DNA from: a virus
DNA: 49,475 nt
IMG/VR virus record: IMGVR_UViG_3300032092_000051
Location: 1-49,475 of that record
Reading direction: 5' to 3' (one strand)
Below, in pieces: positions 23,827-45,102 of the stretch. Both the position numbers and the translations under genes were made by a program. The notes beneath the pieces were generated by a model. It was not told the origin of the DNA. It did not search any database and saw only the letters and a list, made by a program, of their open reading frames with translations. Positions within the stretch are counted from its first letter, which is position 1. Each line of letters opens with the position of its first letter.

Positions 23827-23968
23827 ATGCTGTTGATAGGCATGAAGAGAACCAGAGGCTGATCTCGTGTAGATCGGCCTCGTCCTTCACCGCCATAAAC
23901 GCTTTTGCCCACGCATCCGCGTCAACGCACATGTCCTGTTCTAGTTTCCGTCTGACCTCGTGTGTCAA
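23720..23968 (-). CDS. Small hypothetical early protein, 3' end antisense to the late gene
   Basis: An 82-residue ORF starting with TTG in a TTGA overlap with the upstream gene's stop, with GGGAGAGG 6-10 nt before it. The first 48 residues look like a real small phage protein (DADAWAKAFMAVKDEADLHE then ISLWFSSCLSTAF, a WAxxF...WF pattern). The last 35 residues lie on the antisense strand of the + gene that ends at 23826 and look random. Translation of the N-terminal part is likely; the overlapping tail is doubtful. Confidence 0.5.
   Translation of the reverse strand: MTHEVRRKLEQDMCVDADAWAKAFMAVKDEADLHEISLWFSSCLSTAFICGQQKPHHASLQRSPHPRNNGTAGSPQPSLAGA
23855..23881. terminator. Hairpin between convergent late and early units
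   Basis: GAGGCTGATCT, loop CGTGT, AGATCGGCCTC: an 11-bp stem with one G.T pair, 29 nt after the stop of the late operon. It is followed by gtcctt rather than a run of T. It could end late transcription, or slow both polymerases, but it also lies within the small - strand ORF. Confidence 0.45.
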
Positions 23969-24342
23969 CGCCCCTCTCCCTTTGCTTCGGCCAGCAGCGC
24001 GGCATAGGCTATGTTATCCTCGGCGCTGTCGGCGTGATACTCGCTGCGCGTGAACAGGCGAACAAGCTTGACCTGCTGCATGAACATCCAGCCTTCGCTC
24101 TCGGTCAGGTCGCGCCCTGTGATGGCATTGAAGGCCGTCACAATCTTACCCATTGACCGTTCGCCCTCTGGCTCGTCATAGGTCGCGGATCGGTCGTGCA
24201 TGTGCGCCGCAGCGCGGCCCAGCAGCTCGGCGGCCTTCGGCTCTGGCATCTTGGGTGTCGCATGCGACTGGAAGCAGTCCAGCGCCAGCTTCACTGTGTC
24301 GTGCTCGACATCGCAGAAACTGCATATAAAGCTCTTGCTCAT
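23965..24342 (-). CDS. DUF6378-domain protein with N-terminal Cys motif
   Basis: A 125-residue protein. The N-terminus (FICSFCDVEHDTVKLALDCF then QSH) could bind zinc through C-x2-C and C/H. Residues 45-120 match the DUF6378 pattern: DRSATYDEPEGERSMGKIVT, then MQQVKLVRLFTRSEYHADSA and EDNIAYAALLAEA. This family is common in phage replication regions and its function is unknown; the helical acidic pattern is reminiscent of MazG-like folds, a guess only. The start is in an ATGA overlap with the helicase stop. Confidence 0.75.
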   Translation of the reverse strand: MSKSFICSFCDVEHDTVKLALDCFQSHATPKMPEPKAAELLGRAAAHMHDRSATYDEPEGERSMGKIVTAFNAITGRDLTESEGWMFMQQVKLVRLFTRSEYHADSAEDNIAYAALLAEAKGEGR

Positions 24343-33081: not shown

Positions 33082-33393
33082 TTAGGCCTTGCGCGCCACG
33101 ACCTTGACGGTCGTGTAGCCCTTGGTGGTCTTCTGGTTCTTGCTGAACCAGCGACCGTCGACGCCCAACTCACGAAGTTTGGCTTCGGCAGCCTTGGGGC
33201 AGAGCGACTGGCGCTCGGCGATCTCGGACACGGTGGCGCGGAAGGTGTCGCCCTCGTGGGCACCTGCGCCAAGATCCTTGATCTCGTCGGTGAGAAAAGC
33301 TTCGATCTCCTTCAAGCGGGCGATCTCGGCCTTGATGTCGCCCAGACGGTCGACTGGGGAAATGTTGGAAATGGTTGCGGCTACAGTTGCCAT
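33082..33393 (-). CDS. Hypothetical protein, first gene after the 33.4-kb operator
   Basis: A 103-residue protein. Residues 14-40 form a helix (LGDIKAEIARLKEIEAFLTD). The rest is GDTFRATVSEIAERQSLCPK then AAEAKLRELGVDGRWFSKNQ and TTVKVVARKA. It resembles small phage proteins encoded at the start of replication operons; role unknown. ATG 33393 follows TAGGAGTACGCATC, the shared leader sequence, so it heads the operon that continues to the SSB and GapR genes. Confidence 0.7.
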   Translation of the reverse strand: MATVAATISNISPVDRLGDIKAEIARLKEIEAFLTDEIKDLGAGAHEGDTFRATVSEIAERQSLCPKAAEAKLRELGVDGRWFSKNQKTTKGYTTVKVVARKA

Positions 33394-33427
33394 GATGCGT
33401 ACTCCTATTTGCGTTGCTGATAGACAT

Positions 33428-33456
33428 CATATAGTCGCTGCAATTAGGCATTGCAA
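33428..33456 (-). promoter_or_regulatory. Promoter with operator dyad, 33.4-kb operon
   Basis: On the - strand: TTGCAA (33451-33456), 17 bp, TATATG (33428-33433), the best -35/-10 pair of the four repeated sites. The dyad TGCAAT-N5-ATTGCA (33439-33455) covers the spacer and -35. The leader box ATCAGCAACGCA and AGGAG follow before the ATG at 33393. Confidence 0.65.
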
Positions 33457-33471
33457 CCCCCCTAAGCAAAA

Positions 33472-35523
33472 TTATTCGTAAAAAATTACAATGCCTTTTT
33501 CCATGCGCAGCGGGCCGTCCTTTTCCTTGCTAAGTTGCTGAATTGCCCTGACAATCGACTGGCGGCGGATGTCACGCTTGCCCTGCTCAGGCGGTGGTAA
33601 CATATCGCAAGCCTTCTGGATGAGCTCTTCTGCACGCACGACGGCGTCTTCTGCAAAGGTCGTCATGACCTCAAGCACATGCGTCTCAAGCCGACCGCGA
33701 CGCTTCACGGATTTCTTGTCTTCGGTCACGGTCGACCGCACCTCGTCCTCGACTGCGACGCAGCTTGTGATCTCGTCACCGTCCTCGTCGAAGCCCAGCA
33801 GGATCGTCTCCAACTTGAAGCCCCAGCGCAGGCCGTCCTCACCGTCCTTTTGCTTGCTGGTGCGGATCTGGCGTGCGCCGTTGTTCTCATCCCGCGTCAC
33901 TTCCAGCTCGGCGTCGACGGCGGCGCGGATGCCTGACCAGCCGCGTGAGCCTCGGTGGGCGTCCTTGCCTGCGTGATGCACAAGCTCGACCGTTGCGCCT
34001 GTCGCGGTGCGCAGGATGCGCACGTTGGCAAGGGCGAGGCCCATGTCCTCTGCGCCGTTCTCGTTCGCGCCGGGCGTCACCTGCGCAAAGGTGTCGATCA
34101 CGATCAGGGACACGCCGCCGACCGCCTTGATCGATGCCGCCAGCTCGGTGACGTCGCCCTCCTCCATGAGGTTGGGCGGCACCACGATCACGCCGATGTC
34201 CAGATCTTTAGGCGAGATGCCCAGATGCTGCGCCAGCGCCTTGATGCGCTTGCCGTAGCTGCCTGCGCCTTCCGCTGCGATGATCACGACGCGGCCCTTC
34301 TCGGCCTTGTGGCCGCGCCACGGCACGCCCAGTGCGATGCAGGCCGCCATCTCAAGGACGACAAAGCTCTTACCTGAGCCTGACGCGCCAAAGATCGTGA
34401 CGATGTCGGCGGCAGGCACGACGCCCTTGATGAGCCACTTAGCCGTCTTCTGGCTGCTCATCTCATCGGCAGACAGGACCGGGAACTTGCCGGTGTAGCC
34501 CGCAGGCGAATAGACGCCCTCTGACGCTTCCAGATCGGCGACGAGCGCATCGGCCTTGGCCGACACCTCATAGGCGCTCGCCGCCTTACTGGGGCGCGTT
34601 GCTGCGGCGTCCTTTACCATCTTGATTACGGAGGCCATGGTGACCTGCTTGCGGTTGGAGCCCTTGCGCCGCTCGAAGCTGTCCCACTGGACGCGCAGCC
34701 CTTCGGTGCCGGGGTAGGTGTAGCCTTCGCTCGACCAGTCGTCCCAGATCTCGAAGCCGTCATCGCCGCCGTCGGTCTCATGGGCCAGAGCCATGCCGAC
34801 CTTGATCCACTGCTCGCGGCCCATGTCTGGATCGAGGGCGGAGACTAGCTCCTGCATGCGCTCAATGGTCAGGCCGAGCCTCGGCTCGCGGCCTGCCATG
34901 AAGTCGTCGGGATCGATGACGTTGTTCTGCACCGAACCGAAGCGGGCCTCGCATAGGTCGACCGTGTACTGGTCAACGTCGGCGACTGTGTTTTTAAGGC
35001 CTATCATCTCGCAGGCTGGCAGAATGTTGCCGGTGAAGGTCACAAAGCCTGAGCTGCTGAACGTCTCGAAGCCGAAGCGGTCGGGCGTGGCGTGGCTCTT
35101 GTGGTTGCCCAGATTGCCCCTCAGCGCGGCGCGGATGCCTTTGCCGCTGGGGCTGTACTCGGCGTAGGTGCGCACGATGATGCGCTCGATGTCGTTCGGG
35201 ATCTCACCGTTCGGCCCGACGCAGTGGTCGAAGTCGAGGAAGGTGTACCCAAAGTCAGGCAGGGGCGCGAAGCCGACGCCGTCATAGCCCATGCGCGCGG
35301 CTGCGTCGCGAGCGGCGGCGAAGGTTGTCAGCCGTGTGCGGTCGGTCGGGGAGCCCTGCTGGCCGTGCCTGATCGTGCCGTCGGTCCAGTAGGGCACCTT
35401 ACGCGGCTTGGGTTCGTTGTGGTATTTCTCAAAGCGCCAGATCAGCCACGCGGGAACTGAACGCAATTCCTCTGGCACTTCTAACGAGAGAAGTTTGGGC
35501 GCAATTGCCCTTACGCTTGCCAT
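33472..35523 (-). CDS. PrimPol-helicase fusion (primase-polymerase plus RepA-like ATPase)
   Basis: A 683-residue replication protein. N-terminal primase-polymerase: PAWLIWRFEKYHNEPKPRKV, the metal-binding FLDFDHC, and AEYSPSGKGIRAALRG. A PriCT-2-like middle: LVSALDPDMGREQWIKVGMA with DDWSSEGYTYPG. A C-terminal AAA_25/RepA-type helicase: Walker A IFGASGSGKSFVVLE, RVVIIAAEGAGSYGKRIKAL, Walker B LIVIDTFAQ, and LVHHAGKDAHRGSRGWSGIR. It should prime and unwind at the fork, so no separate primase or DnaB is needed. ATG 35523 follows GGAGAGG; a GTG 18 nt upstream is rejected. Confidence 0.88.
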   Translation of the reverse strand: MASVRAIAPKLLSLEVPEELRSVPAWLIWRFEKYHNEPKPRKVPYWTDGTIRHGQQGSPTDRTRLTTFAAARDAAARMGYDGVGFAPLPDFGYTFLDFDHCVGPNGEIPNDIERIIVRTYAEYSPSGKGIRAALRGNLGNHKSHATPDRFGFETFSSSGFVTFTGNILPACEMIGLKNTVADVDQYTVDLCEARFGSVQNNVIDPDDFMAGREPRLGLTIERMQELVSALDPDMGREQWIKVGMALAHETDGGDDGFEIWDDWSSEGYTYPGTEGLRVQWDSFERRKGSNRKQVTMASVIKMVKDAAATRPSKAASAYEVSAKADALVADLEASEGVYSPAGYTGKFPVLSADEMSSQKTAKWLIKGVVPAADIVTIFGASGSGKSFVVLEMAACIALGVPWRGHKAEKGRVVIIAAEGAGSYGKRIKALAQHLGISPKDLDIGVIVVPPNLMEEGDVTELAASIKAVGGVSLIVIDTFAQVTPGANENGAEDMGLALANVRILRTATGATVELVHHAGKDAHRGSRGWSGIRAAVDAELEVTRDENNGARQIRTSKQKDGEDGLRWGFKLETILLGFDEDGDEITSCVAVEDEVRSTVTEDKKSVKRRGRLETHVLEVMTTFAEDAVVRAEELIQKACDMLPPPEQGKRDIRRQSIVRAIQQLSKEKDGPLRMEKGIVIFYE

Positions 35524-35546
35524 GTCGTCATCCTCTCCCACAGTGT

Positions 35547-35795
35547 TTACAGTAGATCTGCGCTTGCGCTGGGCGTGTTCAGGGCCCGCATGAGATCAGG
35601 GTTCATGAGCTCGGAGCGCGGGATGGCGAAGATGGCCTCGATGATGATGGCCTTCTCGACGGGTGCCCAGCCGCGACTTTTCCACGCATAGACGGCCTGA
35701 TGCGTCAGGCCCATGCGCTTACAGAACTTGACGATGCCGCCGCCTCGCTCGATGGCGAGGTCGATGGCGGCAATGCGTTCTTGTTTGGTGGTCAT
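35547..35795 (-). CDS. YdaS/Cro-like helix-turn-helix regulator
   Basis: An 82-residue protein with a YdaS/Cro-type HTH: RIAAIDLAIERGGGIVKFCK then RMGLTHQAVYAWKSRGWAPV, with recognition helix THQAVYAWKSRG, followed by IEAIFAIPRSELMNPDLM. It is the only clear DNA-binding regulator seen here, so it is the natural candidate to bind the 17-bp dyads upstream of the operons; this is inference. It lies in the 36.5-kb operon just before the PrimPol gene. ATGA overlap with the upstream gene. Confidence 0.82.
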   Translation of the reverse strand: MTTKQERIAAIDLAIERGGGIVKFCKRMGLTHQAVYAWKSRGWAPVEKAIIIEAIFAIPRSELMNPDLMRALNTPSASADLL

Positions 35796-35980
35796 GCGGC
35801 TACTTTCGTTTCTTGCCTGAAGCTCTCTTCTCGGAGGCCCCAGACGCGGGTGATGACCATGTGCTCGGTCCTAAGTTGGGTAATTTGGTTGTTGATGGCG
35901 CGCAGCTCGGCTTCGAGCTTGTCGCGCTTGGTGAAGGCCTTGCGAGCCTCGGCGTGGATGGTCTTGAGATCCCGTGTCAT
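35792..35980 (-). CDS. Small coiled-coil hypothetical protein
   Basis: A 62-residue, helical, charged protein (KTIHAEARKAFTKRDKLEAE then LRAINNQITQLRTEHMVITR). The first 45 residues read as a coiled coil. Start and stop are both in 4-nt ATGA overlaps with neighbours, which supports translation. No family is recognised. Confidence 0.65.
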   Translation of the reverse strand: MTRDLKTIHAEARKAFTKRDKLEAELRAINNQITQLRTEHMVITRVWGLREESFRQETKVAA

Positions 35981-36207
35981 TTGAAACGCTCCCCCTTGCG
36001 GCCCATACGGCCTGTCTTCGGGTTGCGGAAGTGTGCCTTCTTGAGCAGATCTTGGAGACGCTCAAGCTCGGTGCGCAGGATGCGCTGATGCAGCGCATGC
36101 TCTTTCAGTTTTATCTCAAGCCTACTGTTCATGGCGTGCAGACGGTCGGCTTCCAACTTGTAGGCTTCAATCGCCTTGTGTGCGGCCCACGGCCAGATGA
36201 TGTTCAT
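35977..36207 (-). CDS. Small basic helical hypothetical protein
   Basis: A 76-residue protein: an amphipathic N-terminus with Trp (MNIIWPWAAHKAIEAYKLEA), a helix LEIKLKEHALHQRILRTELE and a basic tail KTGRMGRKGERFK that could contact nucleic acid. ATGA overlaps on both sides. Function unknown. Confidence 0.6.
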   Translation of the reverse strand: MNIIWPWAAHKAIEAYKLEADRLHAMNSRLEIKLKEHALHQRILRTELERLQDLLKKAHFRNPKTGRMGRKGERFK

Positions 36208-36518
36208 GCATACTCTCCCAGTTTTCCGGCGGCGATTGCCTCCTCGATGATGTCGGTAAGCTTGGCTGCGAGCTTCTCGTAGCTGACGGCCCAGTCCATG
36301 GATGCGTAACGCTGGGCGTCCGTGCGCTCGTTGATGTCGAACGAGGTGCCGTGATCCCAGACGACGATGTCTGTCGTCTCGCCTTCGAGGTAAACGTCGA
36401 AGTCGGCAGTCGCGCCTTGCTCAGGCTCGTAGCCGTCCCAACTGACGGTGATGTCGAGTTGGGTGTGCGCCTTGAGAGCCTTGTTGATTTGGCTTTCGGT
36501 GTATTCGGGGTGGTCCAT
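36204..36518 (-). CDS. Acidic hypothetical protein, first gene after the 36.5-kb operator
   Basis: A 104-residue acidic protein: MDHPEYTESQINKALKAHTQ, then LDITVSWDGYEPEQGATADF, DVYLEGETTDIVVWDHG and a C-terminal helix YEKLAAKLTDIIEEAIAAG. A beta-sheet core with two flanking helices is likely. Start ATG 36518 follows CGGAGTACACAAC; the longer frame runs back into the operator and is rejected. It heads the operon that includes the HTH regulator and PrimPol. Confidence 0.65.
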   Translation of the reverse strand: MDHPEYTESQINKALKAHTQLDITVSWDGYEPEQGATADFDVYLEGETTDIVVWDHGTSFDINERTDAQRYASMDWAVSYEKLAAKLTDIIEEAIAAGKLGEYA

Positions 36519-36547
36519 GTTGTGTACTCCGTGTTGCTGATGAGCTA

Positions 36548-36576
36548 TCCCTAATCGATGCAATCAGGCATTGCAA
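36548..36576 (-). promoter_or_regulatory. Operator dyad and possible promoter, 36.5-kb operon
   Basis: The dyad TGCAAT-N5-ATTGCA lies at 36559-36575, matching the one at 39.94 kb base for base over the whole 17 bp. A - strand TTGCAA (36571-36576) could be the -35; the expected -10 (TAGGGA at 36548-36553) is weak, so an activator may be needed. It is followed by ATCAGCAAC and CGGAG before ATG 36518. The dyad overlaps the stop of the 38-residue gene upstream. Confidence 0.6.
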
Positions 36577-36680
36577 TACCCTATCGATGATTTTTTTGAT
36601 ACTCGACGCAGCCAATCCCCTGCCCAGACTGCGGCCAGCACCAGTAGGATAACACCGATAAAGAGAGCGGCCTCCGTCAC
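36564..36680 (-). CDS. 38-residue single-span membrane mini-protein
   Basis: Start GTG 36680 is in a GTGA overlap with the upstream stop. The protein reads MTEAALFIGVILLVLAAVWA then GDWLRRVSKKSSIGYCNA: one transmembrane helix (residues 5-23) followed by a basic tail, which predicts the C-terminus inside. It ends within the next operator. It is too short for usual gene callers, but the overlap and the clear membrane pattern support it. Function unknown. Confidence 0.55.
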   Translation of the reverse strand: MTEAALFIGVILLVLAAVWAGDWLRRVSKKSSIGYCNA

Positions 36681-36931
36681 GCGTTGCCCGCCACGTCACT
36701 GAACATGGTCAGGTCCGTATGTGCCCGCGACATAATCATCCGGGCCATGGCTTGGGTGACCTCGGACACGTCCTGAACGTCGTCCATCGCCATGAACTCG
36801 GCGTACAGGAGCTTGATCAGGACTTCCGCTCGGCAGACCCGCTCACTGTCGGCGAAGATGTCCCAGAGGACGTCGGTAATCTCTTGCTCCGCTGTTTCGT
36901 GCGATAGGACGTGGCGCTCTTCTTCAGTCAT
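36677..36931 (-). CDS. Acidic helical hypothetical protein
   Basis: An 84-residue acidic, Met-rich helical protein (TAEQEITDVLWDIFADSERV; LIKLLYAEFMAMDDVQDVSE; TQAMARMIMSRAHTDLTMF). ATG 36931 lies 8 nt inside the end of the upstream gene; the GTGA overlap at its stop links it to the membrane mini-protein. No family is recognised. Confidence 0.65.
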   Translation of the reverse strand: MTEEERHVLSHETAEQEITDVLWDIFADSERVCRAEVLIKLLYAEFMAMDDVQDVSEVTQAMARMIMSRAHTDLTMFSDVAGNA

Positions 36932-37073
36932 CTTTTTTCCCTTCGATTAGGTGGTTCAGCCCGAGGCGCTTCGCCTCACGCTCAAGGTGTTGGACCTTGC
37001 GCCGAGCCAGCTCCAGTTGCTGCGGCAAGATCTTGATGCGGTACTTCATGTACCGCAGGGCTTCTGGCTTCAA
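36924..37073 (-). CDS. 49-residue basic coiled-coil protein
   Basis: Start TTG 37073, in a TTGA overlap with the upstream mini-gene and behind GAGGAG: MKPEALRYMKYRIKILPQQL then ELARRKVQHLEREAKRLGLN and a basic end. An ATG eight codons in (37049) is the alternative start. It is helical and strongly basic, so nucleic-acid contact is possible. The longer frame to 37253 crosses other coupled genes and is rejected. Confidence 0.5.
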   Translation of the reverse strand: MKPEALRYMKYRIKILPQQLELARRKVQHLEREAKRLGLNHLIEGKKDD

Positions 37074-37147
37074 AATCGGATCTCCTCGTCGGCCCAGTCG
37101 TAAATGTCCCAGCCGAAATTGGTGAACAGGAATTGGCGCAGGGTCAT
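37070..37147 (-). CDS. 25-residue aromatic/acidic mini-protein
   Basis: ATG 37147 overlaps the upstream stop (ATGA), and its own TGA overlaps the next TTG (TTGA). The protein reads MTLRQFLFTNFGWDIYDWAD then EEIRF. It has six aromatic residues and an acidic end. Coupling on both sides is the main support. Function unknown. Confidence 0.45.
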   Translation of the reverse strand: MTLRQFLFTNFGWDIYDWADEEIRF

Positions 37148-37281
37148 TTGCGTTTGTCCCGTATATAAAACCAGTCAGCCCAAGAAATGCGACCAGACCT
37201 GCTCCCCGAAAAGTAGAAGCAGCTTCGGCCCTTGCGTTTGTCAGCCATCTCAATACGCTTAGTTTGAATTGGGTTTGTCAT
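37144..37281 (-). CDS. 45-residue basic mini-protein
   Basis: ATG 37281 overlaps the upstream stop (ATGA) and its stop overlaps the next ATG (ATGA). The protein reads MTNPIQTKRIEMADKRKGRS then CFYFSGSRSGRISWADWFYI and a basic end. It is rich in Lys/Arg and aromatics, so RNA or DNA binding is conceivable. No family is recognised. Confidence 0.5.
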   Translation of the reverse strand: MTNPIQTKRIEMADKRKGRSCFYFSGSRSGRISWADWFYIRDKRK

Positions 37282-37652
37282 TGCCCCTTTTCCCGTATCT
37301 CAAAGCCAGCGGCGTCCAGTGCGGCGCGGAGAGCGTTGGCAGCGTCTTCACTCGTTAGATGCATCTGCGCCGCGCACTTTTCTATCGCCTCCACCAGCGG
37401 GTCAGGCTTGGGCTTGGGGATGATGAGCGGGTCAAGCATTGCAGCACCCCAACTGGTAACTGCGCAACTCTCAATGACTTTCTCAACCGCATCGCTCACC
37501 TCTTGCTTAAAGGCTTCGTGCTGTTCGATGGCGCGGCATAGTGCTTCGTGCGCGGGTAAGTCTTCACGGCGCACTTTGTCCTCCGGCGGGTAACCACGTT
37601 CTTTCCACACCTCATTCAACAGCGCCAAGGCTTTTGCTTCAATGTCTGTCAT
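37278..37652 (-). CDS. Hypothetical helical protein
   Basis: A 124-residue protein: MTDIEAKALALLNEVWKERG then YPPEDKVRREDLPAHEALCR, AIEQHEAFKQEVSDAVEKVI, a Pro-rich loop (DPLIIPKPKPDPLVEAIEKC) and AANALRAALDAAGFEIREKG. It is mostly helical and acidic. Similar ALxLLNEVWKERG openings occur in small phage proteins, as I recall, with no function. ATG 37652 is in an ATGA overlap with the preceding small gene; the longer frame to 37772 is rejected. Confidence 0.65.
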   Translation of the reverse strand: MTDIEAKALALLNEVWKERGYPPEDKVRREDLPAHEALCRAIEQHEAFKQEVSDAVEKVIESCAVTSWGAAMLDPLIIPKPKPDPLVEAIEKCAAQMHLTSEDAANALRAALDAAGFEIREKGQ

Positions 37653-37816
37653 CTGAGTAACAGCCCTTCCAGTTCGCGGATGGCCCACTGGATGCCTTGG
37701 ATCTCGACGCCCATGTCGTGCAGGCCGTGCGCGTCCTTGGCGTGTAGAAACACCTCCGCCATCTCCCAGCATACTTGTTCGCGCTTGCGCAGCGCCTCGA
37801 TACGTTCCTTGATCAT
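37649..37816 (-). CDS. 55-residue helical hypothetical protein
   Basis: MIKERIEALRKREQVCWEMA then EVFLHAKDAHGLHDMGVEIQ and GIQWAIRELEGLLLR. Two amphipathic helices around a His/Asp turn. ATG 37816 overlaps the upstream mini-gene's stop, and its TGA overlaps the next ATG, both as ATGA. It is below the length limit of most gene callers but very likely real. Confidence 0.6.
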   Translation of the reverse strand: MIKERIEALRKREQVCWEMAEVFLHAKDAHGLHDMGVEIQGIQWAIRELEGLLLR

Positions 37817-37887
37817 TGATCCCAATCCTTATTGTTTCTGAACATGTAGGCCAAAAGCCGGTCGATGATGCGGCGTATCAGTCCCAC
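37813..37887 (-). CDS. 24-residue basic amphipathic mini-protein
   Basis: GTG 37887 lies inside the end of the upstream membrane gene, 6 nt behind a strong GGAGGA. The protein reads MGLIRRIIDRLLAYMFRNNK then DWDQ, an amphipathic basic helix like membrane-active peptides. The stop overlaps the next ATG (ATGA). The good Shine-Dalgarno and coupling support translation; function unknown. Confidence 0.45.
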   Translation of the reverse strand: MGLIRRIIDRLLAYMFRNNKDWDQ

Positions 37888-38003
37888 CAGTCTTCCTCCA
37901 TCTCTTTGCGCTCCTGTGCGGTGAGCTCAGGCGCAGTCAGCATGAGGTAGGTCGTCAGCAGGCCGAGGCCTACTATGAAAAAGAAGAGTGCGCGCTCGCT
38001 CAT
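37878..38003 (-). CDS. 41-residue single-span membrane protein
   Basis: ATG 38003 is in an ATGA overlap with the upstream gene. The protein reads MSERALFFFIVGLGLLTTYL then MLTAPELTAQERKEMEEDWW and D: one transmembrane helix (residues 5-23) and an acidic tail. It is one of three tiny membrane proteins in this early array. Possible roles are superinfection exclusion or lysis timing, but nothing in the sequence decides. Confidence 0.6.
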   Translation of the reverse strand: MSERALFFFIVGLGLLTTYLMLTAPELTAQERKEMEEDWWD

Positions 38004-38341
38004 GCTGCACCCTTGCGGGTGTAGCTGCGCTTCGTGCCGTCCTTGTAATAGACGTGCGCCCACGGCTCACCTTCCTTGGCCCAGTATTCCTGATAGTCCT
38101 CGACAGGCTTGCCGTAGATCTCAGGCGTCGCGTCGCCTTCACCCCAAGCGCGGGACCAACGGTCGCCGCAGCAGGGGCAGTCAGGGCCATCATCGTCAGT
38201 GCCGTCGAAGTAGATGCCGATGTCCTCAGCCTTACGGTCAGCCTCGTCGGCGCTGCCCGCCTCGATGATGACGTTGTAGGTGACGCGGTCATCGACGTCG
38301 AAGCCACCGCCTGAATTGTTCTGGTCGTATATGTAAAACAT
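38000..38341 (-). CDS. DUF7296-like small protein with CPCC motif
   Basis: A 113-residue acidic protein: MFYIYDQNNSGGGFDVDDRV, then VIIEAGSADEADRKAEDIGI, YFDGTDDDGPDCPCCGDRWS and a basic tail. The DQNNSGG start and DCPCCGDRW core match a recurring phage family (DUF7296, from memory). The Cys cluster may bind zinc. Function unknown. Its ATG overlaps the upstream TAA (TAATG) and its stop overlaps the next ATG. Confidence 0.72.
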   Translation of the reverse strand: MFYIYDQNNSGGGFDVDDRVTYNVIIEAGSADEADRKAEDIGIYFDGTDDDGPDCPCCGDRWSRAWGEGDATPEIYGKPVEDYQEYWAKEGEPWAHVYYKDGTKRSYTRKGAA

Positions 38342-38535
38342 TAGTTTGCCTCCTTGCGCACGGGTGTCTTGCGCGGTTTCTTGTCCTTGCTGCCCTTGGG
38401 GCGGCCCGGTTTGCGCGGGCGTGTCTGCATCAGCTCACCCTCGACTATGATGACGGCCAATGCGACCCTTACGGCCTCCTCCCAGTCCAGCCAGACGGCT
38501 GTATCAAAGAGCTTACGTGCTAACCATTTCTTCAT
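38341..38535 (-). CDS. Small protein with C-terminal AT-hook
   Basis: A 64-residue protein: MKKWLARKLFDTAVWLDWEE then AVRVALAVIIVEGELMQTRP, ending in RKPGRPKGSKDKKPRKTPVR. KPGRPKGSKDKK is a good AT-hook (GRP core with flanking basic residues), which binds the minor groove of AT-rich DNA. The N-terminal 35 residues form a helix. Possibly a host-takeover or nucleoid-binding early protein; inferred. Confidence 0.65.
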   Translation of the reverse strand: MKKWLARKLFDTAVWLDWEEAVRVALAVIIVEGELMQTRPRKPGRPKGSKDKKPRKTPVRKEAN

Positions 38536-38545
38536 TTCAGTCCTC

Positions 38546-38893
38546 CTATTTAATTACCCTGTATTGCGGAATGCGTGAGGCGTGGCTCTTCACCGACTTG
38601 GTGGGGGCGATGTTGTGCAGTTCGACATAGTTTTGCCTGATCCAACGGCCCAACACGCCCCTAGCGGATGCACCCCACGCGTTGGGATGCGATGGCGTTC
38701 CGGTGTATGGCAGTACGTAGAGGCGTAGATCCTCGCCGGTGAACAGGTCATTGAAGCGGAGGTCGTCGAGAAACTTCTCGGCGTAATATGCGTAATCCTC
38801 CTTCCAGCTTGATGCTTGGTTCTCAAGCACCTGCTCACAGCCAGCGTCGCGCGCAGCGCGGCTGGCGGAGCCGTCGGGTAGATCTTCGGTCAT
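38546..38893 (-). CDS. Hypothetical early protein
   Basis: A 115-residue protein: ARDAGCEQVLENQASSWKED, then YAYYAEKFLDDLRFNDLFTG, EDLRLYVLPYTGTPSHPNAW and a basic C-terminal part WIRQNYVELHNIAPTKSVKS. The end (TKSVKSHASRIPQYRVIK) could contact DNA. Start ATG 38893 is 7 nt after AGGAG and in an ATGA overlap; an ATG two codons upstream is too close to the Shine-Dalgarno. No family is recognised. Confidence 0.65.
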   Translation of the reverse strand: MTEDLPDGSASRAARDAGCEQVLENQASSWKEDYAYYAEKFLDDLRFNDLFTGEDLRLYVLPYTGTPSHPNAWGASARGVLGRWIRQNYVELHNIAPTKSVKSHASRIPQYRVIK

Positions 38894-38982
38894 TTCCATT
38901 CTCCTGTCAGTGTCTTGACGATTGCGATGATGGTGAAGGCGAGGACGGCCAAAAAGAAGATGTTCGATGCGATGTGGATCAT
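38890..38982 (-). CDS. 30-residue single-span membrane mini-protein
   Basis: ATG 38982 overlaps the upstream stop (ATGA), and its TGA overlaps the next ATG (ATGA). The protein reads MIHIASNIFFLAVLAFTIIA then IVKTLTGEWK: a transmembrane helix over almost its whole length with a short basic end. Missed by length-limited gene callers. Function unknown. Confidence 0.55.
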   Translation of the reverse strand: MIHIASNIFFLAVLAFTIIAIVKTLTGEWK

Positions 38983-39242
38983 GCTGCTGCCCTCCCCTGA
39001 TTGCCGATGTGCAGTGCCTCGTCGAGCAGCTCGTTGCGCAGCGTGTGCAGCGCGGCGATGCGGTCGAAGTGCGTGGTGCGGTCGTCGATGAAGCGGTCAC
39101 GGTCGCCGAGGTAGTCGCGACCGTTGGGCGTGACCTGCTTGAGCGCCTCGATGGCGTCCATCAGGTGGTCCATCGCCGCGCGGCGGGGCTGGATGAGGTC
39201 AACGGCGCTGCTGCCGTTGATGTTGAGTGTTGGTCGTATCAT
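38979..39242 (-). CDS. Conserved hypothetical early protein
   Basis: An 87-residue protein: MIRPTLNINGSSAVDLIQPR then RAAMDHLMDAIEALKQVTPN, GRDYLGDRDRFIDDRTTHFD and RIAALHTLRNELLDEALHIG. I recognise this pattern (LNINGTSxxDLxxxRRAA...TPNGRDY) from many tailed phages, without known function. It is helical with an Asp/Arg/His-rich loop. ATG 39242 follows AGGAGCACATC and a GC hairpin. Confidence 0.72.
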   Translation of the reverse strand: MIRPTLNINGSSAVDLIQPRRAAMDHLMDAIEALKQVTPNGRDYLGDRDRFIDDRTTHFDRIAALHTLRNELLDEALHIGNQGRAAA

Positions 39243-39281: not shown

Positions 39282-39896
39282 TTAGCGGTAGGTTACTGTG
39301 ATCTTGCCACCACCGCGACGCTGCTGCGCCTTGTGGCCTGCGGCCTTCAACTCCTCGACGCGGGCGTGTGCCGCGCTGTAGGTCTTGAAGTACTCGCGCT
39401 TGATGTCGGCTTCGACCTTGCGCTCCTGAAGCGGCTGGCCGTGGACCGTCTCACGCAGGTCAACAAGCATCTCGGCGTCGGCGCGAACGCCGCGAGCAAT
39501 GCTGCGGTGTTTCATGCGAGCGATCTCAACCTGACGGTCGAAGTCAGCGTAGCGGGGCTGCGTCGCCTCGAACTCAGCGCGATCAACCATCTTGGTCTCG
39601 CGGAAGCGACGGTTGCGGTCAAAGCGGTAAGGGCCGAACTCGACAAGCACCTTGGTGATGTCAGCCTCGGCGGCTGCCTCGTGCTTCTCTGCGAACTTGA
39701 CCATGGCGGCGATGGTGGCGACATTGACGGCAGTGTCGAGTTCCAATGGCAACTCGTCTGATCCGCCGCAGGTGCCGTTAAAGAAACCATACTCGGTGGT
39801 GTAGCCGTGCTTGGCGATCATGCCGGTGTTGACGTGAACGGCCTGACGGCGTCCGCAGGCTTGGCAGGTGCCGGTGTGGGTAGAAGCGGTGGTCAT
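39282..39896 (-). CDS. First early gene: zinc-ribbon-like hypothetical protein
   Basis: A 204-residue protein. The N-terminus GTCQACGRRQAVHVNTGMIA followed by KHGYTTEYGFFNGTCGG has CxxC and a later Cys/His, as in a treble-clef zinc site. The rest is helical and charged (IAAMVKFAEKHEAAAEADIT; QERKVEADIKREYFKTYSAA) with a basic end (QQRRGGGKITVTYR). Similar proteins head early regions in other phages, as I recall. It is the first gene from the divergent control region, so probably the earliest transcribed. ATGGAGTTAATCAC precedes the ATG. Confidence 0.72.
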   Translation of the reverse strand: MTTASTHTGTCQACGRRQAVHVNTGMIAKHGYTTEYGFFNGTCGGSDELPLELDTAVNVATIAAMVKFAEKHEAAAEADITKVLVEFGPYRFDRNRRFRETKMVDRAEFEATQPRYADFDRQVEIARMKHRSIARGVRADAEMLVDLRETVHGQPLQERKVEADIKREYFKTYSAAHARVEELKAAGHKAQQRRGGGKITVTYR

Positions 39897-39929
39897 GTGA
39901 TTAACTCCATTTGCATTACTGATTTGTCG

Positions 39930-39958
39930 TACCTAATCGATGCAATCAGGCATTGCAA
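39930..39958 (-). promoter_or_regulatory. Operator dyad and early promoter region
   Basis: The dyad TGCAAT-N5-ATTGCA lies at 39941-39957. A - strand TTGCAA (39953-39958) is the possible -35, with a weak -10 (TAGGTA, 39930-39935). It is followed by a diverged leader box (ATCAGTAATGCA) and GGAG before ATG 39896. It drives the outermost early gene. Confidence 0.6.
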
Positions 39959-39987
39959 TACACAAAATGCATCTTTTTAAAATTAAT

Positions 39988-40194
39988 TGCAGCATGCATC
40001 ATTTGCAGCATTAAGCAGCATGCTGCAAATGGTGCAGCTCGGAGAAATGCAGCATTTATGCAGCATCGGGGGGAGCCTTCTAAAAGAAGGCCCCCAACTG
40101 CTGCAAATGCTGCACCGAGCAGATGCTGTGCTGCGCTGCACTTTTGTTGACCACCCTCGGAACTCTCATCCGCTGCATGATGCGTCGTGCTGCA
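39988..40194. repeat. Array of TGCAGCAT boxes in both orientations (iteron-like)
   Basis: Direct copies of TGCAGCAT: 39988-39995, 40004-40011, 40014-40021 (AGCAGCAT), 40048-40055, 40059-40066. Reverse copies of ATGCTGCA: 40020-40027, 40098-40105 (CTGCTGCA), 40107-40114, 40187-40194 (GTGCTGCA), plus degenerate ones at 40123-40140 and near 40171. Copies 3 and its reverse form the palindrome GCAGCATGCTGC. Most copies left of the 40075-40091 hairpin point one way and most to the right point the other. There is no gene in this stretch. Candidate origin, terminase (pac/cos) site or regulator array. Confidence 0.7.
40075..40091. terminator. Central hairpin of the divergent region
   Basis: GCCTTCT, loop AAA, AGAAGGC, extended outward by a run of G (40068-40073) against a run of C (40092-40095) with an A bulge. 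It lies at the symmetry centre of the TGCAGCAT array. There is no T-run on either strand. It could insulate the divergent units or be part of an origin or packaging site. Confidence 0.5.
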
Positions 40195-40202
40195 TGCTGT
40201 AA

Positions 40203-40248
40203 CGCAATCCCACGTTGCATTGACAATTTGGATTTCGTGAAGGATCAT
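40203..40248 (+). promoter_or_regulatory. Candidate late promoter with adjoining operator dyad
   Basis: TTGACA (40220-40225), 17 bp, GATCAT (40243-40248; 4 of 6 to TATAAT) facing the terminase genes. Immediately upstream, CGCAAT-N5-GTTGCA (40203-40219) has the same 6-5-6 geometry as the early operators, so one regulator could control early and late units. Confidence 0.55.
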
Positions 40249-40364
40249 GCAGGCAGTGGCTCGGCTGATTTGGAATAGGTCGAGCCACACCCTCTTGTAG
40301 TTTCATCGCGCTGCTGCTATCTGGGGGTTCTGGTAGTCCTGCCAAGAAGCGGAGCATGCAGACA

Positions 40365-40853
40365 ATGGGTCAGACGAAACGAACTTCTGCCGTCGAGCAG
40401 CGTATCATCGAGGGGCTGTGCGATGGCGTCCCGCTGCGTGAGTTGTGCCGTCAGGATGGGATGCCGAGCTGGCGGACTGTGTATGATTGGATCTCCGCCG
40501 ACGAGGAGTTCGCCGCACGCATCGCGCACGCGCGCGAGTTGGGCTTCGACGCCATAGCCGAGGACATCCTCGACATCGCCGACGACGGCACCAACGACTG
40601 GATCGAGCGTCAACGCAACGACGGCACGACCGAAATGGCAATCAACAGCGAGCATGTGCAACGCAGCAAGTTGCGCATCGACACGCGCCTCAAGCTTCTG
40701 GCGAAGTGGTCACCCAACAGGTACGGCGACAACGCAACATTGAGCCTCGCCAACAAAAACGGTGAAACGCTCAAGATCGAGACCCAGCCCGCCGACCCCA
40801 TGGTGGTGTCCGCAGTGACCCAAGCCCTGCTCTCGCATAAGGTAGACCCATGA
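40365..40853 (+). CDS. Terminase small subunit (Sf6-like)
   Basis: A 162-residue protein. An N-terminal HTH region IIEGLCDGVPLRELCRQDGM then PSWRTVYDWISADEEFAARI matches Sf6-type small terminases. A helical ring-forming core ARELGFDAIAEDILDIADDG and a C-terminal tail follow. It recognises the packaging site and feeds DNA to the large subunit; its HTH could bind the TGCAGCAT array just upstream. ATG 40365 is better spaced from GGAG than ATG 40356. It ends in an ATGA overlap. Confidence 0.88.
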   Translation: MGQTKRTSAVEQRIIEGLCDGVPLRELCRQDGMPSWRTVYDWISADEEFAARIAHARELGFDAIAEDILDIADDGTNDWIERQRNDGTTEMAINSEHVQRSKLRIDTRLKLLAKWSPNRYGDNATLSLANKNGETLKIETQPADPMVVSAVTQALLSHKVDP

Positions 40854-41026
40854 TCTGGAACCCGTGGCGTCGCATCCGCGAGCTTCAGGTTGAGCTGGAC
40901 CGCGTGTGCGCCGAGCGCGCTGCGCTTGATCACGCGCTGCTGCGGTCGACGGAACGGTACGACAAGATCCGCGAGACCAACCTCCAACTGCGCGACGCGC
41001 TGACGCTCTACCGCAAGAACGCATGA
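40850..41026 (+). CDS. 58-residue coiled-coil protein between terminase subunits
   Basis: ATG 40850 and TGA 41026 both form ATGA overlaps, with the small and large terminase genes. The protein reads MIWNPWRRIRELQVELDRVC then AERAALDHALLRSTERYDKI and RETNLQLRDALTLYRKNA. It is a continuous charged helix, probably a coiled coil. It is too short for many gene callers. Position suggests a terminase-associated or spacer protein; function unknown. Confidence 0.65.
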   Translation: MIWNPWRRIRELQVELDRVCAERAALDHALLRSTERYDKIRETNLQLRDALTLYRKNA

Positions 41027-42522
41027 CCAGCGCGCCGCTTACACTCGCGGATGGTCGCGTCGTGCAGGTTGACGTAGTCGACATCCTGACTGGCGACGAG
41101 CACGTCAATACCTTCATGGAGTGGCAGACGCGCTGGAAAAGCACGGCGCGCGACAGCCAGATCCCCCCGTTCACCAACTGGAGCGAGTGCGGCTTCCTTG
41201 CCGGGCGCGGCTTCGGCAAGACGCGCGTCGGCGCAGAGTGGCTGACGCGATCCGTCTTCCTCGATCCGTCGGGCTTCGATAGCTGCGTGATTGCGCCGAC
41301 CTATCAGGATATTCAGGTGACGTGCATGGAGGGCGAGAGCGGTCTGCTGTCCGTCCTGCCGCCCGAGCTGCTCGTCGAGCACAACAAGACGGGCAACTAC
41401 ATCCGCATGCGCAACGTGACCGGCGGCATCAGCACGATACGCGGCTTCACGGCTGAGAAGCCCGAACGTCTTCGCGGCCCGCAGCACTGCCGTGCATGGT
41501 GCGACGAGCTCGCCGCATGGCAGTACGATCAAGAGACGTGGGACATGATGATGATGGGCATGCGTCTCGGCCCTGCACCGCAGATACTCTGGACGACGAC
41601 GCCCAAGCCCAAGGAGCTGATCCGCAGGCTGAGCGCGCCCAAGGACCGGCGCGTCATCGTGCGGGGCTCAAGCCATGACAACCGAGCGAACCTGCCCGAC
41701 GACTTCTTCAGCAACCTCGAACAGTATGAGGGCACGACGCTTGGGCGTCAGGAGATTTACGGCGAGCTGATCGATCCTGAAGAGAACGGCGTCATCAAGC
41801 GGAGCTGGATCAACCTCTGGCCCGCCAAGCGCAGGCTGCCGAAGCTCGACTGGATCATCATGTCGCTCGACACGGCCTACACCGAGAAGAGCGTCGACAA
41901 GAAGGGCGACACCGACCCGACGGCGTGCGGCGTCTGGGGCGTGTTCCAGTACAAGAACATGAGCCACGTCATCCTGCTCGACTGCTGGGAGGATCATCTC
42001 GGCCTGCCCGACCTGATGAAGCGCGTGAAGAAGGAGCGCAACGTGCGCTACGGCGACGACGACGATCAGGCGCTGATCCGCCCCATGTTCGGCAGCGCCA
42101 AGCCCATGACGTCTGGACGCAAGCCCGACATCCTGCTGATCGAAGACAAGGGCAGCGGCATCTCGCTGCGCCAGATGTTGGAGCGCGAGGGCATCGAGGC
42201 CTACGCCTACAATCCGGGGCGCGCCGACAAGTTGACGCGGCTGCACATGGTCTCGCCGATCTTCGCCCAGAACCGCGTCTGGGTGCCCGAGAGCGACAAG
42301 TTCCCCGGCAAGCCACGCAGTTGGGTCGAGCCGCTGATCTATCAGCTCTGCTCGTTCACCGGCGAACGCTCAATTAAGCACGACGACCACGTCGATCAGA
42401 CCACGCAGGCGCTGCGGCTGTGCATGGATAAACGCATGATCGACCTCACACGCAAACCGCGCGATGACTGGAAGGGTGACAGACCCGCCCCCACTGTGGT
42501 AATGAACCCCTACGCGGCGTAA
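41023..42522 (+). CDS. Terminase large subunit
   Basis: A 499-residue packaging motor. ATPase: Walker A FLAGRGFGKTRVGAEWL, Walker B CRAWCDELAAW, coupling motif ILWTTTPKP. Nuclease: IIMSLDTAYTEK (first Asp), DILLIEDKGSG, and KHDDHVDQTTQAL (last Asp pair). Length and motif order are complete. It cuts concatemeric DNA and drives it into the prohead through the portal encoded next. ATGA overlap with the preceding small gene; the portal follows after 12 nt. Confidence 0.95.
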   Translation: MTSAPLTLADGRVVQVDVVDILTGDEHVNTFMEWQTRWKSTARDSQIPPFTNWSECGFLAGRGFGKTRVGAEWLTRSVFLDPSGFDSCVIAPTYQDIQVTCMEGESGLLSVLPPELLVEHNKTGNYIRMRNVTGGISTIRGFTAEKPERLRGPQHCRAWCDELAAWQYDQETWDMMMMGMRLGPAPQILWTTTPKPKELIRRLSAPKDRRVIVRGSSHDNRANLPDDFFSNLEQYEGTTLGRQEIYGELIDPEENGVIKRSWINLWPAKRRLPKLDWIIMSLDTAYTEKSVDKKGDTDPTACGVWGVFQYKNMSHVILLDCWEDHLGLPDLMKRVKKERNVRYGDDDDQALIRPMFGSAKPMTSGRKPDILLIEDKGSGISLRQMLEREGIEAYAYNPGRADKLTRLHMVSPIFAQNRVWVPESDKFPGKPRSWVEPLIYQLCSFTGERSIKHDDHVDQTTQALRLCMDKRMIDLTRKPRDDWKGDRPAPTVVMNPYAA

Positions 42523-42534
42523 AAGGACAACCTG

Positions 42535-45102
42535 ATGCAAGACGAAGACGAACAGGAGTACGGCGAACTCATTGAGCTTGAGGGCCAAGAGCAGGACGAC
42601 GTTGAGGACACCGAAGACGGCGGCGCAATCGTGCGCCTCGACGAGGAAGACCCGAAGGCAGGCGAGAGCGAGTTCTACGCCAACCTCGCCGACGGCATCA
42701 TCCCCGAGCCGGAGCTGGGCCGCCTGTCGTCACGCTTCCTCGACCTGATCAGCAAGGACAAGGACGCGCGCAAGAAGCGCGACGACCAGTATGACGAAGG
42801 CCTGCGACGCACGGGTCTGGGCGACGACGCCCCCGGCGGCGCAGACTTCCAAGGCGCATCGAAGGTGGTCCACCCGATGCTGACCGAGGCCTGCATCGAC
42901 TTCGCGGCGCGCGCCATGAAGGAGATCTTCCCGCCGCAGGGTCCTGCCAAGGACTTCGTGCCGGGCAAGCCCACGGACAAGAAGCTCGACAAGGCGAAGC
43001 GCAAGACCAACCTGCTCAACTGGCAGATGACCGTGCAGTGCCCCGAGGTGCGTGCCGAGCTTGAACAGCTCATGACGCAGGTGCCACTGGGCGGCGCGCA
43101 GTATCTGAAGCTGGGCTGGGACGAGGCGAAGAACCGGCCTGAGTTCCTGTTCGTCGCCATCGACGACATGTACCTGCCATTTGCGGCCACCAACTTCTAC
43201 ACGGCCCAGCGCCGCACGCACGTCCAGTACCTGACGCAGCTCGACTATGAGAACCGCGTCAAGAACGGCATGTACCGCGACGTCGACCTGACGCCCGCAG
43301 GCATGGAGCCTGAGATGAGCGTGGCCGCGCAGGCCAACGACAAGATCGAGGGCCGCGAGCAGACCAGCTTCAACGAAGACGGCCTGCGGATCGTCTACGA
43401 GATCTACGCGATTGCCGACGTCGAAGGCGAAGGCGCAGCGCCGTACATCATCAGCGTCGACAAGCCCTCGGGCAAGGTGCTGTCGATCTACCGCAACTGG
43501 GACGAAGAGGACGAGCACAAGGAAGAGTTGCTCTGGTTCGTCGAGTTCCCGTTCATTCCGTGGCGCGGCGCGTATCCAATCGGCCTGCCGCACATGATCG
43601 GCGGCCTCTCGGGTGCTGCGACCGGCGCACTGCGCGCATTGCTCGACAGTGCGCACATCTCCAACAGCCAGACGATGCTCAAGCTCAAGGGCGGCACGGC
43701 AGGCGGCCAGTCTCTGTCCATCCAGCCGACGCAGACCATCGAGATCGAGGGCGGCCTGAACGTCGACGACGTGCGCAAGCTGGCGATGCCGCTGCCGTAC
43801 AACCCGCCCTCGCCTGTCCTGATGAACCTGCTCGGCTTCTTGGTCGACGCAGGCAAGGGCGTGGTCCGCACGGCCTTGGACGACGTGGCCGACGGCAACC
43901 CGAACGCGCCCGTCGGCACGACGCTTGCCAAGATCGAGCAGGGCATGGTCGTCTTCTCCTCAATCCACGCACGTCTGCACGACGCCATGGCCCGCATGCT
44001 GCGGATCTTGCATCGCCTCAACGCGATGTACCTCGACGACGAGCGGCTGGAGCAAGAGGCAGGCGAAGAGCTCGCCACGCGCAAGGACTTCGAGGGGCCG
44101 CTTGATGTGGTGCCTGTCTCCGATCCGAACATCTTCAGCGAGGCGCAGCGTTATGCGCAGGTGCAAGCCGTGTCGCAGCGCGCCGCCGCCCTGCCGCAGC
44201 TCTACAACATGCGCGCCGTTGAGGAGCGCCTGCTTGAGACGCTCAAGGTGCCCAACCCGAAGGAGCTTCTGGTCCCGCCGATGGAGCCCAAGGACCAGAA
44301 CGCCGTCAACGAGAACGTCGCGGCGACACTGGGTCGCCCGATCACGGCCTTCCCCGATCAGGACCACATTGCGCACCTCAAGACGCACCTTGCGTACATG
44401 ATGAGCCCGACCTTCGGCATGTCGCCGATGATCGCGCCCGCCTTCCTGCCCGTCATGCTGAACCACATCAAGGAGCACGTCGCTCTGTGGTACGCGGCAT
44501 CCGTCTTCGACGTCTCGAACGAGGCGCTCGGCGAGGATGTGGGCGACATGATGAAGGAACTGGGCAAGGATACGGAAGGGCGCAAGGCGCTCGACCAGAT
44601 GCTGGCCGAGGCTGGTGCCGCCGTTGTGCAGCGCGGTGGCGAGATCTTCAGCGATCTGCCGCAGGTTGTGCAGCAGGCGCAGCAGGTCATGCAGCAGTTC
44701 GCACCGCAGCCGATGCAAGATCCGCGCCTCGCCCTTGAGACGCAGAAGCTTCAGGCCGAGACGCAGCGCGATCAGATGCGCATGCAGCAGGATGCGCAAC
44801 AGGCGCAGCTTGAGGCGCAGATGGACCAGCAGCGGATGCAGCTTGAGCAGCAGAAGATGCAGGTCAATGCGCAGCAGGACCAGCAGGACAACCAAATCGA
44901 CATGGCCGAGCTTCAGCTCCGCATGCAGATCGAGCAGCAACAGCAGCAGGCTGAAGATGCACGTAAGGCGGCTGAGCTTCAGGCTCGCATGACGATGAAC
45001 TCGCAGGACAATCAGACGGCCATGCAACTCGCGGCTGCCGAGATCGCGTCCGGTGAACAAATCGCGGTGTCGACAGGCACCGGGATCAACCCCAACCCGT
45101 GA
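42535..45102 (+). CDS. Portal protein (P22-like, with long Gln-rich C-terminus)
   Basis: An 855-residue portal. An acidic N-terminus precedes the wing and stem region (RFLDLISKDKDARKKRDDQY; TNLLNWQMTVQCPEVRAELE; WDEAKNRPEFLFVAIDDMYL; FVEFPFIPWRGAYPIGLPHM; LLDSAHISNSQTMLKLKGGT). The last 130 residues are Gln/Met-rich heptad-like repeats (QRDQMRMQQDAQQAQLEAQM), as in the helical barrel of P22-type portals, but longer and richer in Gln than usual. The dodecamer forms the DNA entry vertex. It follows terminase directly, as expected. Confidence 0.9.
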   Translation: MQDEDEQEYGELIELEGQEQDDVEDTEDGGAIVRLDEEDPKAGESEFYANLADGIIPEPELGRLSSRFLDLISKDKDARKKRDDQYDEGLRRTGLGDDAPGGADFQGASKVVHPMLTEACIDFAARAMKEIFPPQGPAKDFVPGKPTDKKLDKAKRKTNLLNWQMTVQCPEVRAELEQLMTQVPLGGAQYLKLGWDEAKNRPEFLFVAIDDMYLPFAATNFYTAQRRTHVQYLTQLDYENRVKNGMYRDVDLTPAGMEPEMSVAAQANDKIEGREQTSFNEDGLRIVYEIYAIADVEGEGAAPYIISVDKPSGKVLSIYRNWDEEDEHKEELLWFVEFPFIPWRGAYPIGLPHMIGGLSGAATGALRALLDSAHISNSQTMLKLKGGTAGGQSLSIQPTQTIEIEGGLNVDDVRKLAMPLPYNPPSPVLMNLLGFLVDAGKGVVRTALDDVADGNPNAPVGTTLAKIEQGMVVFSSIHARLHDAMARMLRILHRLNAMYLDDERLEQEAGEELATRKDFEGPLDVVPVSDPNIFSEAQRYAQVQAVSQRAAALPQLYNMRAVEERLLETLKVPNPKELLVPPMEPKDQNAVNENVAATLGRPITAFPDQDHIAHLKTHLAYMMSPTFGMSPMIAPAFLPVMLNHIKEHVALWYAASVFDVSNEALGEDVGDMMKELGKDTEGRKALDQMLAEAGAAVVQRGGEIFSDLPQVVQQAQQVMQQFAPQPMQDPRLALETQKLQAETQRDQMRMQQDAQQAQLEAQMDQQRMQLEQQKMQVNAQQDQQDNQIDMAELQLRMQIEQQQQQAEDARKAAELQARMTMNSQDNQTAMQLAAAEIASGEQIAVSTGTGINPNP

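Follow-up and report, generated by a model that had tools for sequence, protein, structure and literature searches.

Gene-precise mosaicism is well known in phages, and its cause is debated: repeated boundary sequences have been set against random exchange followed by selection (PMC3233612). In the cluster I mycobacteriophages, the small gene 68 of Island3 is missing from a related phage, and the sequence at its 3ʹ end duplicates that at the 3ʹ end of the gene just upstream (Pope et al. 2011, PMC3029335). Cluster K mycobacteriophages carry start-associated sequences (SAS), one fixed 13-bp repeat found genome-wide (PMC3203893). Overlaps of the ATGA type are abundant in prokaryotes, and 13 of 14 pairs tested by Huber et al. 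(2019, PMC6728339) were strictly coupled in translation. In archaeal viruses, early genes under a common regulatory sequence led to anti-defence genes whose function was tested (PMC11065993). Here we describe a chain of ~19 small minus-strand genes, running from 39896 to 35547 and leading into a primase-helicase gene, in a 49475-base stretch of an uncultured virus record (the window).

Cassettes and joints in the gene chain

On balance, we think it probable that the chain is an early accessory operon of a podovirus-like phage, built of cassettes that are coupled in translation and can replace one another. Relatives differ by the gain, loss or exchange of individual genes, each as a cassette whose boundaries fall precisely on the stop-start overlap. 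Overlapping genes and gene-precise mosaicism are known; the mini-protein families, the common module ahead of the chain and the overlap as exchange point are new here.

An earlier note on this DNA had described a chain of open reading frames (ORFs) joined by stop-start overlaps. Each of its small ORFs (38, 25, 45, 55, 24 and 30 residues) was found on the minus strand at the position and length given. The whole chain has 13 exact joints of the kind found in coupled pairs: 12 are 4-nucleotide (nt) NTGA overlaps (starts 38982, 38893, 38003, 37816, 37652, 37281, 37147, 37073, 36680, 36207, 35980 and 35795) and one, at start 38341, is a 1-nt TAATG overlap. The other joints are inexact: a 10-nt overlap at 37887, an 8-nt overlap at 36931 and gaps ahead of 39242, 38535 and 36518. 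The genes are listed below in their order along the minus strand, with lengths in amino acids (aa); p refers to the synonymous excess in the annotated frame, from a parsimony count along a tree.

g01: 39282-39896, minus strand; 204 aa, zinc-ribbon-like, phrog_17208 (unknown function)
g02: 38979-39242, minus strand; 87 aa, unknown, distant relatives in Rhizobium, Erythrobacter and other phages
g03: 38890-38982, minus strand; 30 aa, predicted single-span membrane mini-protein of the HIAS-x2-FF...K/R-T-x-x-G family, 21 loci, p 1e-3
g04: 38546-38893, minus strand; 115 aa, confined to close relatives
g05: 38341-38535, minus strand; 64 aa
g06: 38000-38341, minus strand; 113 aa, DUF7296 (PF23969) / phrog_4867, between g05 and g07, present or absent by relative
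g07: 37878-38003, minus strand; 41 aa, predicted single-span membrane mini-protein with a near-invariant ERKEMEEDWW tail, 56 loci, p 1e-35
g08: 37813-37887, minus strand; 24 aa, predicted amphipathic basic helix (moment 0.64), GTG start, overlaps g07 by 10 nt, p 8e-3 (weak)
g09: 37649-37816, minus strand; 55 aa, predicted helical hairpin with DAHGLHDMGVEIQ motif, 143 loci, p 1e-127, AlphaFold2 predicted local distance difference test (pLDDT) 97.5
g10: 37278-37652, minus strand; 124 aa, divergent, synonymous excess not detected
g11: 37144-37281, minus strand; 45 aa, ratio of non-synonymous to synonymous substitution rates (dN/dS) 0.12, p 1e-11
g12: 37070-37147, minus strand; 25 aa, MTLRQFL..NFGWDIYDW...IRF, p 4e-8
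g13: 36924-37073, minus strand; 49 aa, TTG start, p 1e-5
g14: 36677-36931, minus strand; 84 aa, called by codon usage, few relatives
g15: 36564-36680, minus strand; 38-aa hydrophobic ORF, doubtful as a conserved gene, end inside module copy 2
g16: 36204-36518, minus strand; 104 aa
g17: 35977-36207, minus strand; 76 aa
g18: 35792-35980, minus strand; 62 aa
g19: 35547-35795, minus strand; 82 aa, weak Cro/YdaS-like helix-turn-helix (phrog_35, E value 8e-5; YdaS, E value 2e-6, below cut-off), candidate regulator
primase-helicase: 33472-35541, minus strand; follows the chain, 50% identity to that of Caulobacter phage RW

Gene calls in 118 non-redundant loci, with the proteins grouped into families, yielded 122 configurations where a pair of families that are neighbours in one phage stand 1-2 genes apart in another. 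Many of these have long gaps or uncertain calls, and hence subsets were examined. In clean cases compared base by base, homology on the left runs to the ATG and homology on the right begins there, and the overlap is present whether the joint is empty or occupied by a gene. The joint between g10 and g11 occurs with and without a 64-aa gene, that between g11 and g12 with and without a 95- or 66-aa gene, that between g02 and g03 with and without a 129-aa gene, that between g03 and g04 with and without a 63-aa gene, and that between g05 and g07 with and without g06, the overlaps being kept in every case. DNA homology is present on both flanks in 20 configurations, 16 of which have 4- or 1-nt joints exclusively; the sharp homology step in these 20 is partly by construction, since the intervening gene X differs from its neighbours A and B. 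When configurations were picked by homology away from the joint, 34 of 48 left both neighbours intact up to the joint, so that homology breaks coincide with gene edges. The configurations are not all independent events.

What allows a gene to be replaced without damage to its neighbours? At 199 of 274 distinct 4-nt joints, the upstream gene contains a Shine-Dalgarno (SD)-like motif near positions -12 to -9, as against 20% of internal control positions. Hence, each gene carries the start signal of any successor, and a cassette swap would be harmless to neighbours because the linker serves any downstream gene. The anatomy is the same from gene to gene, each 3ʹ end bearing an SD motif and NTGA for the next, and the genes would be translated serially by stop-start coupling, as are the coupled pairs of other organisms. 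A whole start-to-stop cassette could then enter, leave or be swapped at the overlap with its neighbours unbroken, as is seen in the relatives. A fixed SAS-like repeat was sought and not found among the 274 joints, whose linkers have only the SD motif in common.

Some linkers are repeated on the two sides of a gene. Near-identical copies flank a 64-aa gene in loci L036 and L071 (GGGAGAAGGGGCA directly ahead of ATGA) and an 88-aa gene in locus L007 (GGAGAAACTGAA directly ahead of ATGA). Re-pairing the linkers among the 20 events gave p values of 0.0004 to 0.014 over seven lengths. Across all chains, with families collapsed, identity of at least 11/14 was found in 6 of 166 adjacent linker pairs and in 6 of 1568 non-adjacent pairs (p 0.0004), and mean identity also differs between the two classes (p 0.002); the linker p values are uncorrected for the several lengths tried. 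The similarity of flanking linkers is genuine but confined to a minority. It agrees with exchange through linkers and their later decay, and also, for most cassettes, with random exchange plus selection.

Recombination through the linker may explain the direct repeats that flank a minority of genes, perhaps by way of the phage exonuclease and a Gp2.5-like annealing protein, both of which are encoded near the chain. A more specific proposal, which we regard as rather doubtful, is that the SD-plus-NTGA linker is dual-purpose, coupling translation and also serving as the recombination address at which these two proteins would plug mini-genes in and out, with a duplicated linker left behind that decays.

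The strongest competing explanation, to which we give about an even chance, is that illegitimate recombination strikes at random and that the survivors are those that keep both neighbours and coupling. The overlap would then be no exchange signal, and the repeated linkers would reflect convergence on a good SD motif together with a few tandem duplications of gene ends; the chain would stay the same operon. Phage mosaicism is usually viewed in this way (PMC3233612), and the lack of a repeated linker at most cassettes is consistent with it. However, convergence on the SD motif should act on adjacent and non-adjacent pairs alike, whereas, within a genome and with families collapsed, adjacent pairs have matching linkers ~9 times as often as non-adjacent pairs.

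Evidence that the small ORFs are genes

The earlier note considered overlaps repeated this often hard to explain by chance. The longest strictly exact chain comprises 6 ORFs and is unremarkable alone (300 dinucleotide shuffles: mean 3.18, maximum 7); we dropped it as too weak a test and counted exact joints along a tiling path instead, tolerating 8- and 10-nt overlaps and short gaps. This count is 13, against a shuffle mean of 3.38 and a maximum of 10, and 0 of 1000 shuffles reach 13. With ATG starts only, there are 4 exact joints, a number reached by 13 of 1000 shuffles. We do not rest the case on the tiling-path count because it was chosen after the exact-chain statistic had proved weak. The gene status of the ORFs is decided by their conservation rather than by the number of overlaps.

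To collect relatives, we searched with the primase (33 loci, 30-99% identity) and with profiles of g07 (56 loci), g09 (143 loci, the best 80 of which were used) and g03 (21 loci); several fetched loci are overlapping pieces of the same contigs. Among distinct ORFs, length is nearly constant: 14 of 18 for g12 have exactly 25 codons, 16 of 17 for g08 have 24, and 41 of 43 for g07 have 41-42. Pooled pairwise dN/dS is 0.17 for g07, 0.08 for g09, 0.12 for g11, 0.17 for g12 and 0.44 for g03, whereas the same DNA in the other two frames gives about 1 to 2.5. Such pairs are not independent; the tree parsimony count, which scores each change once, detected a synonymous excess in the annotated frame for g07, g09, g11, g12, g13, g03 and g08, with the p values listed above, and none in shifted frames. 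No clear excess was detected by this count for g10 and g14. A codon-usage gene caller trained on the large genes recovers every chain gene but g15.

These data, from homologues in uncultured phages, place g03, g07, g09, g11, g12 and g13 under purifying selection in the annotated frame. By evolutionary criteria (selection in frame and constant lengths), most of the small ORFs are protein-coding, as the earlier note had supposed; the frames are kept in relatives, and most relatives keep the overlaps as well. Its count of at least six ORFs under 56 codons can be extended by two, of 41 aa (37878-38003) and 49 aa (36924-37073). The default minimum of a common gene caller is 90 nt. The concern that length cut-offs would miss these genes is thus justified for those of 24 and 25 residues (75 and 78 nt) and not for the other small genes. 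Comparable genes are annotated in the cultured Caulobacter phage RW, one of them for a 30-aa membrane mini-protein at an ATGA joint.

The smallest ORFs, g08 and g15, might not be genes at all. In that case, the conservation of g08 would come from its neighbours, and g15 would be a hydrophobic by-product of reading through the promoter region. We take this as a real, if lesser, possibility. For g08, dN/dS in a shifted-frame control comes close to the low value of the true frame. Nonetheless, 24 codons, the GTG start, the 10-nt overlap and a KDW[DE]Q end are kept in 16 of 17 distinct ORFs, and there is the weak synonymous excess; we grade g08 only as a probable gene because of the shifted-frame control. 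We also considered a frameshift joining g07 to g08; by eye, the overlap is without a canonical slippery site. ORF g15 has no SD motif, and in the two closest relatives insertions or deletions push its tail into other frames; scanning recovered it from only 3 loci, two of them near-identical contigs. On these grounds, we rejected g15 as a conserved membrane protein, considering that status unproven.

Chain proteins, promoter-like modules and the operon reading

Hydrophobicity fits one membrane span in each of g03, g07 and g15. The earlier note's three single-span mini-proteins are reduced to two: g03 (38890-38982) and g07 (37878-38003) are solid conserved families and convincing predicted single-span proteins, and g15 (36564-36680) is poorly supported. 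The g03 family has the signature HIAS-x2-FF and a terminal K/R-T-x-x-G. In g07, a variable span is followed by the nearly fixed ERKEMEEDWW tail, which is likely to be a contact surface because it is almost invariant while the span varies. An aim at the host membrane, also put forward earlier, is no more than a possibility, with 2 of the ~19 genes encoding convincing single-span proteins. A membrane-directed micro-proteome is too narrow a reading, and a better fit is an early accessory operon whose coupled cassettes are interchangeable.

The g09 family has an invariant DAHGLHD motif across its 143 loci and is confidently predicted to form a helical hairpin. A structure search with g09 gave no PDB match below an E value of 0.6 and a single viral match (E value 7e-4), to an uncharacterised protein. 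Protein searches of cultured phages returned no homologue of g07 or g09, a genome-contig scan returned no relative of g09, and a nucleotide search of cultured phages returned no match. The g12 protein resembles an internal stretch of larger phage proteins with an MTLRDWFA-like motif (L021, L025; phrog_13581, E value 0.012), as if a domain fragment had turned into a free mini-gene. Pfam searches with nine cassette proteins of relatives gave none above cut-off. The cassettes encode small conserved proteins, two of them predicted to span the membrane once, and their likeliest role, at present a guess, is to take over the host or counter its defences in a way suited to the local host.

Three copies of a 49-nt module, tgTTGCAATGCCTgATTGCATCgacTAtatA.tGCttATCAGCAACgCA, are present in the window, starting at 39960, 36578 and 33458:

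Module copy 1: 39912-39960, minus strand; heads the unit starting with g01, 58.5 bits, exact 25-nt repeat
Module copy 2: 36530-36578, minus strand; heads g16-g19 and the primase, 71.5 bits
Module copy 3: 33410-33458, minus strand; heads the next minus-strand unit (ORF 33082-33393), 69.5 bits

The best other sequence in the window scores -12 bits (copies, 58-71). In relatives and the window together, 31 of 32 module sites lie on the chain strand, the window's own three among the 31, and a start codon follows 57-66 nt after the module start wherever a called gene follows. The module comprises TTGCAA, 17 nt and TAtatA, with an inverted repeat, TGCAAT-N5-ATTGCA, across the -35 element and spacer and a conserved ATCAGCAAC at the expected transcription start. 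We infer from this anatomy that it is a promoter/operator, from which the transcript of the chain would start; g19 is a candidate for its regulator. A sigma-54 reading was dropped, there being no GG at -24. The exact pattern occurs in 22 stretches of uncultured viral contigs and had no match in cultured phages. Two features lend indirect support to the earlier note's description of the chain as early: it leads into the primase-helicase, and the module at its head is common to two other minus-strand units.

Could this be simply an ordinary early operon, whose overlaps serve compactness and translational coupling, with swaps as normal turnover and joints that are not special? The abundance of ATGA overlaps in prokaryotes (PMC6728339) and the same layout in the cultured Caulobacter phages RW and GB2A are consistent with this view, which we nonetheless think unlikely, as it predicts neither exact overlaps in both the empty and the occupied state at the same joint nor the linker repeats.

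Several observations weigh against an operon of interchangeable coupled cassettes. The gene caller favours 4-nt joints and SD motifs, which biases the cassette, joint and linker tallies in that direction. Joints are exclusively 4- or 1-nt in just 17 of the 48 configurations picked by homology away from the joint, and repeated linkers are a small minority. Strong evidence of selection is not reached for g08, g10, g14 and g15. Family searches with the chain proteins gave no family of known function, and hence a role in take-over or counter-defence is suggested by position and turnover only.

A lysis function for mini-proteins of the g03 and g07 type (holin- or antiholin-like factors rather than early effectors) would suit small single-span proteins with charged tails, and is very improbable given that they sit among replication genes, away from the structural genes, that their neighbours change freely (g07 has 16 upstream families) and that no chain protein matches a lysis-gene family, nor does any other window protein in the part of the ORFs scanned.

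The minus strand of the window also encodes an exonuclease, DNA polymerase, helicase and methyltransferase besides the primase-helicase, and the plus strand carries terminase and portal genes (40356-45102). Between the divergent units, the region 39960-40290 is dense in TGCTGCA/TGCAGCA words and has an inverted repeat (39995-40011 / 40020-40036); it could be an origin or a regulator-binding region. Elsewhere, at 23965-24342 on the minus strand, a 125-aa protein matches a PHROG labelled phosphofructokinase (E value 2e-26), an odd label for so short a protein.

Significance and comparison with known systems

Why the edges of phage modules coincide with gene edges has long been asked, and two models have been offered (PMC3233612). 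The chain offers many small exchange events, with joints visible to the base and a measurable excess of repeated linkers. Consequently, the two models can be separated by counting in more genomes and by experiment. Phage annotation gains several conserved protein families of 25-55 residues, and the promoter-like module can serve as a guide to more early accessory genes in related phages.

The architecture of the chain is not new, since a chain of this kind is also present in the cultured Caulobacter phages RW and GB2A. In RW, GB2A, KcrB and RLK, a homologous primase-helicase (50% identity) follows many small genes with 4- and 8-nt overlaps, and one annotated gene at an ATGA joint of the equivalent chain, RW_GP045 (L041:5393-5485), encodes a 30-aa single-span protein, MIDTAMTILSYVAVFFVGVSAGILMRRWGE. 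These and other cultured phages differ in that homologues of g07 and g09 and a copy of the module were not found there. A length difference between GB2A and RW was considered as a cassette deletion between isolates and rejected, as this in-frame change of ~375 nt lies within a pentapeptide-repeat gene (L199:6491-7186, L200:6489-7559). In T4-type phages, promoter/stem-loop cassettes reportedly described by Arbiol et al. in 2010 are said to mediate gene shuffling. A short regulatory sequence is there too the proposed place of exchange, but it is said to be a longer promoter plus stem-loop and not a stop-start overlap.

The joints themselves resemble the ATGA and TGATG termination-reinitiation pairs (PMC6728339) in their 4- and 1-nt overlaps and in the SD motif inside the upstream gene; those pairs are cellular, whereas this phage has a chain of mini-genes with interchangeable members. 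Like the SAS of cluster K mycobacteriophages (PMC3203893), the linkers are SD-containing sequences directly ahead of non-structural gene starts; unlike that fixed 13-bp repeat, they vary from joint to joint. As in the archaeal viruses (PMC11065993), a conserved promoter-like sequence stands ahead of several early accessory units, in a phage known here from sequence. The nearest precedent for the linker repeats is Island3 gene 68, whose repeated 3ʹ end is what recombination through such ends would be expected to leave (PMC3029335). There, the repeat is ~50 bp and one case is described; in this chain, the repeats are ~14-18 nt long and lie at the SD motif plus NTGA, and the cassettes concerned are many and belong to several phages.

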